64,000 nt of DNA, from NCBI GenBank assembly GCA_023151275.1, contig JAKLJI010000001.1, positions 210,409 through 274,408 on the forward strand, in the 5' to 3' direction. Position numbers and translations under genes: made by a program. The DNA is from Bacteroidia bacterium. Lineage in GTDB: Bacteria > Bacteroidota > Bacteroidia > UKL13-3. The notes beneath the pieces were generated by a model. It had not been told where the DNA came from. It saw only the letters and a program-made list of their open reading frames with translations, and did not search any database. Shown here piece after piece: positions 1,151-32,078 of the stretch; positions within the stretch are counted from its first letter, which is position 1, and every line of letters begins with the position of its first letter.

Positions 1151-1942
1151 GTGCTTCGTAGAATCGTGACGTCGATATGGCCCCGAAATGCGAAGCATCG
1201 GGCCTTTTCAGCCCAAATTAAACACATAACCGGATTCAGACCCGGAAATTTGGTTTGCTACGAGCAAGCCCTGAGACACCACTCCGTCTCAAAAACCATT
1301 CATCAAAACGGCTCCAGAGATAGCAATGAACGCCTGGAATTTCTTGGCGATGCCATGCTAAATGCAGTAATTGCCGATTACCTCTTCAAAAAATATCCTT
1401 TTCAAGACGAAGGATTTCTTACTCAACTGCGTTCGAAAATTGTAAGCCGCGAAAGTTTAAATGAACTGGCCATCAAAATTCAACTCAACCACTTGGTTAC
1501 TTATGATCGGCGGAGTATGCAAAATCTCAATATTCGTAACAGCATATTTGGAAATGCTCTTGAGGCTTTTTTAGGTGCTATTTACCTAGATGGTGGGTTT
1601 GAAACCTGCCGGGATTTTATCCTCAATAAACTCATTCGCTACCACATTGACGTTGATCGTTTGCAGGTTACCGAAACTAATTTTAAAGGTCGCTTAATTG
1701 AACAAGGTCAGAAAAATGGGCAAAAAGTGGAATTTGATGTGGAGGAAAAACCAGATGGCAAACAAAAGCTTTTTGTAATTAAAGTGTTGATTAACGGCGA
1801 CCTAAAAGGAACCGCGGAACATACAAATAAGAAAAAAGCCGAACAAATGGCGGCTCAACGAGCAATGGAAAGTCTCCTTAACAATCCTCTTTCTGCTACT
1901 AATCAACACGAAGGAGAAATTACTGAATCACAGGATAACTAA
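1151..1942 (+). CDS. rnc: Ribonuclease III
   Basis: Double-strand-specific endoribonuclease that processes rRNA precursors and structured mRNAs. The family signature NERLEFLGDAM is at residues 59-69 and the second acidic helix NALEAFLGAIYLDGG at about 136-150; a double-stranded RNA-binding domain follows at about 175-245 (ending KKKAEQMAAQRAMESLL). Length 263 aa is normal. The start is GTG, 10 nt after fabF, so the two are probably co-transcribed. The last 23 nt overlap the 3' end of convergent truA. This enzyme is relevant to the IVP inverted-repeat element in the metH operon, because classical intervening sequences are removed by RNase III. Confidence 0.96.
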   Translation: MLRRIVTSIWPRNAKHRAFSAQIKHITGFRPGNLVCYEQALRHHSVSKTIHQNGSRDSNERLEFLGDAMLNAVIADYLFKKYPFQDEGFLTQLRSKIVSRESLNELAIKIQLNHLVTYDRRSMQNLNIRNSIFGNALEAFLGAIYLDGGFETCRDFILNKLIRYHIDVDRLQVTETNFKGRLIEQGQKNGQKVEFDVEEKPDGKQKLFVIKVLINGDLKGTAEHTNKKKAEQMAAQRAMESLLNNPLSATNQHEGEITESQDN

Positions 1943-27719: not shown

Positions 27720-30380
27720 CTATTCATAACCCAAAGCCGGAGCAAGCCATTTTTCAATGTATTCCACCGATTCGCCTTTGCGGCGGGCATAATCTTCTAC
27801 TTGGTCTTTCTGAATTTTTCCTACGCCAAAATACTTGGATTCCGGATGGGCAAAGTAGAAACCACTTACCGATGCGGCAGGATACATCGCATAGCTTTCG
27901 GTTAGGCTGATGCCTGTTGCCTTTTCCGCATCCAGCAACCTAAACAAGGTAGCCTTTTCAGTATGATCAGGACATGCCGGATATCCGGGTGCAGGACGAA
28001 TACCTTGATAAGCTTCCTTAATCAACTCTTCATTGCTCAAAGCTTCTTCTGAAGCATAGCCCCAAAACTCCTTTCGCACCCGCTCATGCATGCGTTCCGC
28101 AAGTGCTTCTGCAAGCCTGTCGGCAATGGCTTTAATCATGATGCTGTGGTAATCATCGTGGTCTTTTTCGTAAGCCTCAACCAGCTTTTCAATCCCAATA
28201 CCTGCAGTAACTGCAAACCCGCCCATGTAATCGTTGGTAGCATCCGATTCAGCCACAAAATCAGCCAGGCAATAGTAATGCTGACCTTCGGCTTTTTCCG
28301 ATTGCTGACGTAGGAAATGGAAGCTCTCTTCAGTTCCATTTACATCCAATTTTACATCATCACCAGCGCGTTTGGCAGGCCAAAATCCTAAAACGGCACG
28401 AGCTTGAAGCAATTTATTCGAAATAACCAGATCGAGCATCTTATTGGCATCTTCAAAAAGCTTCGTTGCCTCTGTACCAATTATTTCATCGGTTAATATT
28501 TGAGGATACCTTCCGGTTAATTCCCAGGTGGCAAAGAAAGGAGTCCAGTCGATGTAATTCCGAAGCTCGTCCAAGGGATAATCTTCAAACACACGAGTGC
28601 CTGTAAAACTTGGTTTAACCGCATTGCTCAGACTAACCTTTACATCTTTTTGGCGAGCCTGTTCAATTGGAACAAAGTTCTTTTCGCGCTTGCGGTTTTT
28701 ATACTCTTCTCTGAATTTTTCGTATTCTTCTTTGATGCGTTTGTGGTAAACCGGACCATGTTCTTTACTAATCAAGCTTTGCACCACCGGAACACTCTTA
28801 CTTGCATCAATCACGTGTACCACCGAACCGCTGTAATGCGGATCTATTTTAACCGCAGTGTGCACGCGGGAAGTAGTTGCTCCACCTATCAACAAAGGAA
28901 TTTTGAGTCCCATGCGTTCCATTTCCTTGGCAACTCCCACCATTTCATCCAGAGAAGGAGTAATCAAGCCACTCAAACCAATGGCATCCACCTTTTCTTC
29001 AACAGCTTTAGCAAGAATTTTTTCGGTTGGCACCATCACACCCATATCAATTATATCAAAATTGTTACAGGCCAGCACAACGCCTACAATGTTCTTTCCA
29101 ATATCGTGAACATCGCCCTTAACGGTAGCCATCAGAACCTTACCTTGTCCGCTACCGGTAGTGCCGTTCAGTCGCTTCTCTTCTTCCAGGTATGGAAGGA
29201 GGTAAGCAACCGCTTTCTTCATAACACGTGCACTTTTAACAACCTGAGGAAGGAACATTTTTCCGGAACCAAACAAATCACCCACCTGATTCATGCCGGC
29301 CATCAATGGGCCTTCAATTACCTGCAAAGGCCTTTCAAAAAGTTTGCGAGCTTCTTCGGTATCTTCATCAATAAAATCAACAATTCCTTTTATGAGGGCA
29401 TGGCTAAGACGCTGTTCTACACTTGCATTTCTCCACTCCAAATCAAACACTTTCTCTTTGCCTTTTCCTTTTACCTTCTCGGCATATTCAAGCAAGCGTT
29501 CGGTAGCATCATCGCGACGATCCAACAATACATCTTCAACGTATTCCAAAAGCTCTTTGTCGATTTCATCGTACACCTCAAGCTGACTTGGATTGACGAT
29601 ACCCATGTCCATGCCATGCTGAATGCCGTGGTATAAGAACGCAGAATGCATAGCCTCGCGCACTTTATCGTTTCCACGGAAAGAGAACGACACATTGGAA
29701 ACGCCACCACTAATCTTAGCACCCGGCAAATTCTCCTTGATCCATTTGGTGGCATTGAAGAAGTCGAGCGCATTTCTGCGGTGCTCCTCCATTCCTGTTG
29801 CCACAGGAAAAATATTCGGGTCGAAAATGATATCACTTGCAGGGAAATGAACCTTTTCAGTTAAAATGCGGTAAGCTCTCGAGGCAATTTCGATTCGGCG
29901 CTCGTAATTATCAGCCTGACCTACTTCATCAAACAGCATAACAATAACGGCAGCACCAAAACGCTTAACTGTTTTGGCTTGATGAATAAATTCGGCTTCA
30001 CCCCCTTTTAAAGAGATTGAATTCACGATGCATTTTCCTTGCACGCATTTCAAGCCGGCCTCAATAATTTCCCATTTGGAAGAATCAATCATCACCGGAA
30101 CACGGGCAATATCAGGTTCTGCAGCAACCAGGTTCAGGAATTTCACCATGGCTTCTACCCCATCAATCATTCCTTCATCCATGTTAATATCAATAACTTG
30201 AGCGCCGCCTTCTACCTGTTCGCGGGCAACATCAAGCGCAGCCTCATACAAGCCCTCCTTGATAAGGCGAAGGAACTTCTTGGAACCGGTAACATTGGTA
30301 CGTTCACCAACATTAACAAAATTGGTTTCCCTAGTAATGATTAAAGGTTCAAGACCGCTGAGTTTGAGAATATATGTCAT
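27720..30380 (-). CDS. metH: Methionine synthase (MetH), folate/B12/activation part
   Basis: Second half of a split cobalamin-dependent methionine synthase (886 aa), transferring methyl from methyltetrahydrofolate via B12. Order of domains: pterin-binding barrel at about 15-280 ([36 protein letters not shown]), cap helices at about 320-400, B12-binding Rossmann domain with [14 protein letters not shown] at about 417-430, and the SAM-binding reactivation domain at about 560-886 (ending [21 protein letters not shown]). The substrate-homocysteine domain is encoded by the separate upstream gene at 30851-31864. Split MetH is usual in Bacteroidota, so this is not a frameshift. It is the last gene of a SAM-I-controlled operon. 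Confidence 0.95.
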
Positions 30381-30385
30381 TTCTT

Positions 30386-30408
30386 GCTATGGCTTTAGGC
30401 TATGGCTA
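30386..30408. repeat. Left arm of inverted repeat around the IVP gene
   Basis: A 23-bp arm containing two copies of GCTATGGCT; it pairs with 30812-30834 at 21 of 23 positions. It lies between the IVP stop and the metH (folate half) start. A third GCTATGGC copy follows in tandem. Confidence 0.75.
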
Positions 30409-30417
30409 TGGCCTAAC

Positions 30418-30801
30418 CTATTTTGTTTTAATCGAATTTTCAATTTTATGAATCAATTGGAGAATTTGTTTTTGAATTATCTGCAAATCTCCAATTAACT
30501 CGTTTAACCTGTCTTTTTCTAGAAGTCCAATTTCAGAAGATATTACCAATTGGGTTTCTACTTCATAAGCTGAGCCTAATGCTATCTCAAGGTACCTTTT
30601 AAAATCACTTTCACTCGACCTTGAACAACCTTCAGCAATATTGGAAGGAATGGAAGTTGCTGCCCTAATGAGTTGAGAACTTAATCCAAATCGCTCCTCT
30701 TTAGGAAAGCTCGCAACTAACAAATAGATGGACTTGGTTAGTTGAATGCTATCCTTCCAAATGGCGTATTTCCTAAAGTCCCTTGTTCCCATTGTTTCCA
30801 A
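30418..30801 (-). CDS. Four-helix-bundle protein of the S23 / rRNA intervening-sequence protein (IVP, Avd-like) family
   Basis: 127-aa all-helical protein. FRKYAIWKDSIQLTKSIYLLVASFPKEERFGLSSQLIRAATSIPSNIAEGCSR is the family signature: W-K-x-(S/A)-x-x-L, E-x-x-G-L-x-x-Q-(L/I)-x-R-A, S-I-x-x-N-I-A-E-G. The C-terminal half (YLEIALGSAYEVETQLVISSEIGLL) gives the other two helices. Relatives are encoded in intervening sequences of spirochaete and Coxiella 23S rRNA, and the fold is shared with Avd of diversity-generating retroelements; they form pentamers, and their function is unsettled. Here it lies inside the metH operon and is bounded by a 23-bp inverted repeat. A second possible start is ATG 30792. 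Confidence 0.9.
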   Translation of the reverse strand: METMGTRDFRKYAIWKDSIQLTKSIYLLVASFPKEERFGLSSQLIRAATSIPSNIAEGCSRSSESDFKRYLEIALGSAYEVETQLVISSEIGLLEKDRLNELIGDLQIIQKQILQLIHKIENSIKTK

Positions 30802-30811
30802 ATTTTTCCTC

Positions 30812-30834
30812 TAGCCATAGCTAAAAGCCATAGC
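30812..30834. repeat. Right arm of inverted repeat around the IVP gene
   Basis: Reverse complement of 30386-30408 at 21 of 23 positions. It lies between the end of the homocysteine-domain gene and the IVP start. Similar, decayed GCTAATGGCC-type sequence continues to about 30873 and encodes the last residues of the homocysteine-domain protein. Confidence 0.75.
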
Positions 30835-30850
30835 CATCGTTTTCCAATTG

Positions 30851-31864
30851 CTAATGGCCAATAGCTAATGGCACGGCAACCTTCCTCGGTGGATACTTCG
30901 CAGCAACCTCAGCAATGGCTTTGATATGATCTGGAGTTGTCCCGCAGCAACCGCCAAGAATATTCACCAGTCCTTCTTTGCAAAACTCTTCCACTTGTTG
31001 GGCCATATAAGCAGGCGATTCATCGTACTGACCCATTTCGTTGGGAAGTCCTGCATTGGGATAAGCACTCACAAACAGATTGGATTTAGAAGCCAATACC
31101 TGCAAGTAAGGACGAAGTGCGCTTGCGCCCAGTGCGCAATTCAAACCAATACTCATCAACGGTGCATGTTCAACACTCACCAAAAACGCCTCGGTAGTTT
31201 GTCCACTTAAGGTTCTTCCGCTGGCATCTGTAATGGTTCCGCTAACCATGATGGGGTAGTTTTTTCCACGCTCTTCAAAAACTTCCTGAGCTGCAAACAA
31301 GGCTGCTTTTACGTTTAAGGTATCGGTAACAGTTTCCATCAAAAGCAAATCTGCGCCACCATCCAACAAAGCTCCAATTTGCGTTTTGAAAGCCTCACAC
31401 AATTCATCAAAAGAAACCGCCCTAAAACCTGGATCGTTTACGTCTGGTGACATGGAAGCCAATTTGGTGGTTGGACCCATAGAGCCGGCAACAAAACGAG
31501 GTTTAGACGGCGTAAGCGCAGTAACTTCATCGGCAACCTCACGAGCTATTTTAGCAGATTGGTAATTGATTTGATACACCCAATCCTCCCCCAAATAATA
31601 ATCAGCTTGAGCAATTACAGTTCCACTGAAGGTATTGGTTTCAAGAATATCTGCACCGGCATCCAGGTATTGGCGATGAATGGCTTTAATTACATCGGGT
31701 CTGGTAATGGAAAGCAAATCATTATTGCCCTTGAGGGAATGCGGATAATCCTTTAAAGCCTCGTTTCTAAAATCTTTTTCCTCCAGCTTGTAGCGCTGAA
31801 TCATAGTACCCATAGCGCCATCAAGAATTAGGATGCGCTCTTTTAGTAAGTCGTAAATATTCAT
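30851..31864 (-). CDS. metH: Methionine synthase, homocysteine S-methyltransferase part
   Basis: N-terminal module (337 aa) of split MetH: a zinc-dependent barrel that binds homocysteine. [11 protein letters not shown] at residues 15-25 opens the barrel. The zinc Cys are in [10 protein letters not shown] (about residue 240) and [11 protein letters not shown] (about 303). The last residues (VAVPLAIGH) are encoded by sequence resembling the repeats around the IVP gene, so the true ancestral C-terminus may have been altered there. It is the first gene after the SAM-I riboswitch; the IVP gene and the folate/B12 half follow. Confidence 0.95.
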
Positions 31865-31921: not shown

Positions 31922-31973
31922 TTTTCCAAGAAAATGCAAGCTGGGCTGGTGTTTGCGCCCGAGAGCGCTTTAC

Positions 31974-32074
31974 ACTTATCAGCTCTTCCTGCCGGAAGAT
32001 AGGTGTTGGCACTACGGAAAATCCGACTTGCCAAGACATCATTGGGCCTATTCCCTCCGTCTTTCTGGATAAGT
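31974..32074 (-). promoter_or_regulatory. SAM-I (S-box) riboswitch upstream of split metH
   Basis: On the minus strand the P1 arms ACTTATC and GATAAGT (32068-32074 and 31974-31980) enclose the conserved S-box landmarks in order: AGAAAGACGGAGGGA, GGCCCAATGATG, TTGGCA, GTGCCAA and GGAAGAGCTGATAAG. These are the kink-turn, SAM-binding core and P1 closing sequences of the SAM-I family. With the terminator at 31896-31921 it should switch off the metH operon when S-adenosylmethionine is abundant. It fills most of the 401-nt gap between metH and the helicase; the rest is promoters. Confidence 0.92.
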
Positions 32075-32078
32075 CTGA

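Follow-up and report, generated by a model that had tools for sequence, protein, structure and literature searches.

The IVP gene of the metH operon

In a 64,000-nucleotide stretch of a Bacteroidia bacterium genome, analysed as a whole and called here the window, a gene of the IVP family lies between the two genes of a metH operon and is bounded by inverted repeats. The locus thus raises the question of what this element is and how it came to occupy the spacer. The original prediction left two readings standing, an intervening element that acts at the mRNA level and a mobile IVP cassette with terminal repeats; a resident operon gene and chance have to be weighed beside them. The relevant features of the window, with arms named in the sense of the IVP gene, are as follows.

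About 1259-1639, plus strand: RNase III gene (rnc)
27720-30380, minus strand: second metH gene, the downstream neighbour, with folate/B12/activation domains (TIGR02082 positions 328-1182)
30386-30408, plus strand: 3' arm, the reverse complement of the 5' arm (21 of 23 positions paired)
30418-30801, minus strand: IVP / four-helix-bundle protein gene (PF05635, E=5e-36; TIGR02436 'four helix bundle protein', E=2e-36)
30812-30834, minus strand: 5' arm, GCTATGGCTTTTAGCTATGGCTA, with heptads TATGGCT TTTAGCT ATGGCTA
30843-30873, minus strand: second heptad array, GCCATTA GCTATTG GCCATTA GCAATTG (read from the sequence; direct repeat D1)
30851-31864, minus strand: first metH gene, the upstream neighbour, with the homocysteine domain (TIGR02082 positions 1-320)
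31973-32075, minus strand: SAM riboswitch of the metH operon (RF00162, 70.2 bits)

The layout that had been predicted, with an IVP gene between the metH halves of a SAM-controlled operon, a 23-bp inverted repeat just outside the ORF and rnc elsewhere in the window, was confirmed in each part. The two neighbours also match PRK09490, at positions 12-338 and 343-1232. The IVP gene can start at a TTG (30801) or, more likely, at an ATG (30792), and its closest solved structure is XCC0516 (2gsc, E=3e-22). It is the sole ORF of the element, which holds no gene for a DDE, HUH or serine/tyrosine recombinase.

The arms are 23 nt long and 91% complementary, and the 3' array continues to about 30413; the ATG of the second metH gene lies 5 nt from the arm. 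On the other side, the second array is built of the same heptad unit as the arms and covers the final codons and the stop of the first metH gene. When the window was searched for the arm with 3 mismatches allowed, both matches were the arms themselves, with 0 expected by chance from shuffles. Among all ORFs scanned in the window, strong inverted flanks are unique to the IVP gene (score 36 vs 26 for the next best).

Inverted arms are the rule around IVP genes

To ask how general these flanks are, we aligned the 200 nt upstream of each gene with the reverse complement of the 200 nt downstream and applied a cut-off score of at least 28. The relatives' sample comprised IVP and GxxExxY genes, mainly from Bacteroidota, with other genes of the same loci as controls. 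Inverted arms were found around 64% of 91 IVP genes, a sample that includes some orthologues at one locus, vs 2.0% of 636 controls (Mann-Whitney p=9e-35), and around 59% of 54 GxxExxY genes. In a wide sample across organisms, gathered with a narrow IVP profile and hence biased towards canonical IVPs, arms flanked 71% of 31 genes from Bacteroidota and 66% of 47 genes outside that phylum, the latter spanning Planctomycetes, Patescibacteria, Clostridia, Proteobacteria and a Heimdall archaeon. On cyanobacterial plasmids 9 of 11 IVP genes had inverted arms, with an identity of 0.81 at a lag of 7 nt. The Heimdall assembly was noted separately for an IVP gene with heptad arms at L234:2501-2836.

PF05635 genes number 4 in the window's genome and up to 12 in relatives. 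The expectation that the same arms would surround the other IVP genes of this genome held in part: two of the three, both intact, lie between inverted repeats, but the repeat sequences differ, being (CGTAATT)n and ATGAATTATGA arrays, and the third, a fragment (L004), is without flanking repeats. Much the same applies to relatives, where IVP genes with unrelated flanks were to have counted against the original prediction. The flanking sequences are indeed unrelated, but the flanks are again inverted repeats.

These comparisons bear on the reading of the arms as a product of chance, AT-rich composition or ordinary intergenic repeats that flank many genes of the genome. Although this genome has about 80 occurrences of GCTATGGC-type repeats, such flanks are found at 2% of control genes in the same loci and at no other ORF of the window, and the pattern recurs across phyla with other heptads. 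The control comparison refutes this reading, as does the window-wide ORF scan, and we give it next to no weight. The flanked IVP gene at metH is one instance of a general rule across IVP genes. A full-text search of the open-licence literature returned no paper that joins a four-helix-bundle protein with an inverted repeat; the rule may have been described before in other literature.

The arms vary in sequence and keep a seven-nucleotide anatomy

The arms of IVP genes are degenerate heptanucleotide arrays. Their self-identity is 0.64 at lags 7 and 14 and 0.19-0.30 at other lags, and lag 7 was best in 48 of 58 IVP arms. GxxExxY arms, chosen identically, had no lag-7 peak and a weak peak at lag 9. 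Phase alignment of 172 arms gave the consensus NNTAGYN, with G at 92%. In the 5' arm it is the sense strand that carries this near-invariant G, so that the arrays have a single polarity towards the gene. Arm sequence varies from element to element, while the 7-nt period, the near-invariant G and the polarity are kept. In the window the heptads follow each other at alternating 6- and 7-nt steps, and the 5' arm agrees with the consensus.

Related IVPs carry similar heptads even at different gene contexts. For IVP pairs with at least 55% protein identity and differing contexts, heptad similarity was 0.63-0.74 vs a background of 0.36 (permutation p=0.0015); in one test the link between clade and heptad was lost below about 50% protein identity. 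We infer that IVP may bind its cognate heptads, either as duplex or as a single-stranded hairpin. Such binding would let the protein keep or spread its element via host or other trans-acting functions, which have to be invoked because the cassette encodes no recombinase. As a separate observation, arm mismatches show a strand bias, with A more often in the 5' arm and G at the mirrored position of the 3' arm (50 vs 25 for IVP, 39 vs 10 for GxxExxY).

Within the window's genome the arm family has spread far beyond the gene. A 21-nt arm pattern occurs 80 times here vs 0-2 times in each of 39 relatives, mostly as convergent pairs in intergenic gaps whose copies are 65-78% alike over longer stretches. 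A search of the genome with the cassette gave 64 matches, nearly all to the arms, and the whole ORF was matched by the window copy alone. The arm family thus occupies about 60-80 sites and the ORF has one copy, which is the relation of non-autonomous derivatives to a parent gene; the arms-only hairpins would be such derivatives of the cassette. Elsewhere in this genome, on contig C26 (L291, L292), two stretches about 17 kb apart share genes and repeats, reflecting either a duplication or an assembly fault.

Cassettes are gained, lost and exchanged at gene junctions

An empty metH site in close relatives had been proposed as a check. Three same-genus relatives, at about 75% protein identity, have metH spacers of 12-16 nt without arms, although the exact junction is unreadable. 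The split of metH is present in these relatives, so there is no need to suppose that the cassette caused it. Elsewhere the metH spacer is occupied by an IVP cassette from one of two clades, by a GxxExxY cassette or by a hairpin that has no ORF. Within one genus, G045 and G078 have metH flanks that are 96% and 98% identical and carry unrelated cassettes, and G079 and G080, which carry GxxExxY, match the flanks of G045 at 88-89% and 98-99% identity. Different cassettes, of two IVP clades or of GxxExxY with CACAGAG-type arms, therefore swap in the metH spacer of close relatives. The GxxExxY product in these cassettes is predicted to be nuclease-like.

Several spacer contents were recorded in their own right. 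GxxExxY (PDDEXK_3) genes lie between inverted CACAGAG-type arrays and occupy the same operon junctions as IVP cassettes; cases include the metH spacers L028, L034, L043, L176 and L190-L192, and also L079-L108. The ORF-less hairpin in the L186 metH spacer is made of another repeat, ACAAAGAAACAAAG / CTTTGTTTCTTTGT. Two loci of one genus (L046, L047) have a 187-aa ORF without an NCBIfam match in the metH spacer. In L023 a response-regulator-like ORF replaces the IVP gene between the metH genes, and the metH spacers of L169 and L180 are similar in length to it (406-443 nt) and hold neither IVP nor GxxExxY.

Cyanobacterial plasmids show the insertion at single-base resolution, and their empty sites lack both the gene and the two arms. 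Nostoc pNsp_c has a 506-bp insert relative to pC052_A, placed in the stop/start overlap GGTAATG of two genes (flank identity 98% left, 90% right). Picosynechococcus 7003 differs from 7002 by 424 bp between cas10 and cmr3 (flanks 90%/94%), and pC052_D differs from pC052_A by 417 bp (flanks 89%/99%). The terminal inverted repeats thus move together with the gene. In these plasmids one cassette family also occupies three unrelated loci, its copies agreeing at 78-82% across some 420 bp; one further copy has lost its interior and retains the ends only. There was no clear target-site duplication at the empty sites that could be read; ATG was repeated in one case only.

Taken together, the gene and its two arms come and go as a unit at gene junctions, here or in relatives. 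Empty sites, seen directly on cyanobacterial plasmids and for the window locus itself as the short same-genus spacers, copies at unrelated loci and exchange of cassettes in the metH spacer support the mobile cassette with terminal repeats that the original prediction had offered. We conclude that the roughly 450 bp at 30386-30834, probably extending to 30873, are likely to be an IVP cassette, a mobile element with a single four-helix-bundle gene between inverted arrays of degenerate heptanucleotides.

No near-identical IVP cassettes were found at different loci in the relatives' sample, where the best reached about 76%. Movement must therefore be rare or slow, and a bursty transposon was rejected on this sample. 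A phage origin was also rejected, IVP having no match in 50,697 phage records.

Position relative to host genes

In the relatives' sample the gene upstream of the IVP cassette was codirectional in 58 of 58 cases, and both neighbours were codirectional for 53 of 58 cassettes vs 331 of 531 controls; three cassettes on cyanobacterial plasmids lie antisense between genes. A position at stop/start junctions would allow transcription with the host operon while no gene is broken. The IVP genes themselves are under purifying selection (dN/dS 0.03-0.18).

These properties could also be expected if IVP were a resident gene, that is, a host regulator of its operon with the arms as RNA or DNA control sites. 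Besides the purifying selection and the invariably codirectional upstream gene in Bacteroidota, that reading can appeal to related IVPs that have long stayed at the same junction in Bacteroidota, for example at metH, sufB-sufC and moxR-DUF58. It is at odds with the patchy presence of the gene, with the exchange of unrelated cassettes in near-identical backgrounds and with the same cassette beside unrelated genes, the neighbours being very diverse (metH, suf, cas, conjugation, nrd). We regard a resident regulator as improbable. On cyanobacterial plasmids (L306, L310, L314), IVP genes were recorded in the cas6-cas4 and cas10-cmr3 intervals.

The arms as a predicted stem in RNA

The arms may also act in the transcript. 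According to this reading, they pair in the metH operon mRNA, RNase III cuts, the IVP RNA is released and the stem is under selection. A stem with the IVP ORF in its loop is indeed predicted (fold z=-5.2), 53 of 58 cassettes are in sense orientation in an operon interior, RNase III cuts the same arrangement in the 23S rRNA of Coxiella (PMC4990558), and rnc is present in the window. However, arm mismatches that are G-U-compatible in the sense transcript were not favoured, with 34 compatible vs 74 incompatible for IVP, 15 vs 43 for GxxExxY and 60 vs 75 for the wide set, counts which we read only as absence of support because related sequences make them non-independent. With the G-U bias in the sense strand reversed or absent, nothing indicates selection for mRNA pairing, and the test gave a selected mRNA stem no support. 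The three antisense cyanobacterial cassettes also speak against the reading, and re-joining of the RNA is unneeded because the cassette sits between separate genes. An mRNA-level intervening sequence is thus unlikely, and we return to the mobile cassette for comparison with known systems.

Comparison with known systems

The closest likeness is to the intervening sequences of 23S rRNA in Coxiella and Leptospira, which share the PF05635 ORF, a length of about 430-500 nt, complementary ends of 23-28 bp and a patchy distribution. In Coxiella the ORF is of this family, the complementary end spans 28 bp and GACAGAT heptamers lie beside the ORF (PMC4990558), and the window cassette likewise has complementary ends that form a predicted stem around its ORF. 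In contrast, the window cassette lies between protein genes, and its protein is conserved in relatives and not decaying. Insertion in a 23S rRNA helix does not describe the window element, which is in the metH spacer, nor did any of 20 wide-sample loci place IVP in 23S rRNA.

Seven-base repeats are known from other bacteria: GGGAATC in Xanthomonas, with 70-75 convergent inverted pairs (PMC4692102), TAACTGA in Beggiatoaceae (PMC4692102, PMC4679880) and GGGGAYT in Nostoc. Like the arms, they have seven-base units, are intergenic and have a genome-specific sequence, but their origin is given as unknown. In a term search, neither of these two papers (PMC4692102, PMC4679880) mentioned IVP, S23 or four-helix-bundle genes.

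REP/RAYT (TnpA-REP) systems also have one gene between inverted repeats that spread far beyond it in the genome, but the IVP cassette is without a Y1 (HUH) transposase and the IVP family without a known nuclease fold. As in insertion sequences, terminal inverted repeats travel together with the gene, but the cassette has no transposase or recombinase ORF. Avd of diversity-generating retroelements belongs to a homologous four-helix-bundle family, PF05635 (PMC10053308), but no reverse transcriptase lies near the cassette; both RT matches in the genome fall on other contigs, C76 and C50.

GxxExxY (TIGR04256) and DUF559 genes resemble IVP as small single ORFs between inverted arms in operon spacers, GxxExxY being present in the metH spacer too. 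They differ in family, GxxExxY being PDDEXK_3 and DUF559 separate, and the repeat period in the arms of GxxExxY is about 8-9 and not 7. At L154:12290-12620 a DUF559 (PF04480) gene was seen between inverted CCCCTTTAAAGGGG repeats, possibly a third class of one-gene cassette.

Implications for the IVP family

Our judgement is evenly balanced on a wider proposal, that IVP cassettes form a separate class of mobile element in bacteria and archaea whose non-enzymatic protein recognises a family-specific heptad array. IVP cassettes would then be the source of the heptameric repeats of Bacteroidota, cyanobacteria and Xanthomonas, the 23S rRNA intervening sequences would be members that landed in rRNA, and GxxExxY and DUF559 would be parallel classes with other periods.

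PF05635 genes are common, yet the family is named for a rare location, the 23S rRNA. The present results show what these genes have in common: in structure, the ORF is framed by two mirrored heptad arrays that keep one polarity, and in behaviour, the whole element is acquired or lost together at operon junctions. The over-abundance of heptameric repeats in bacteria has no agreed explanation (PMC4692102), and the cassettes offer a testable origin for them, tying an orphan protein family to the seven-base repeats of many bacterial genomes. Avd-like proteins outside retroelements are likewise tied to a specific nucleic-acid pattern. 'Operon' or 'CRISPR-linked' associations of IVP, such as cas10-IVP-cmr3 and cas6-IVP-cas4, may reflect hitchhiking of the cassette.
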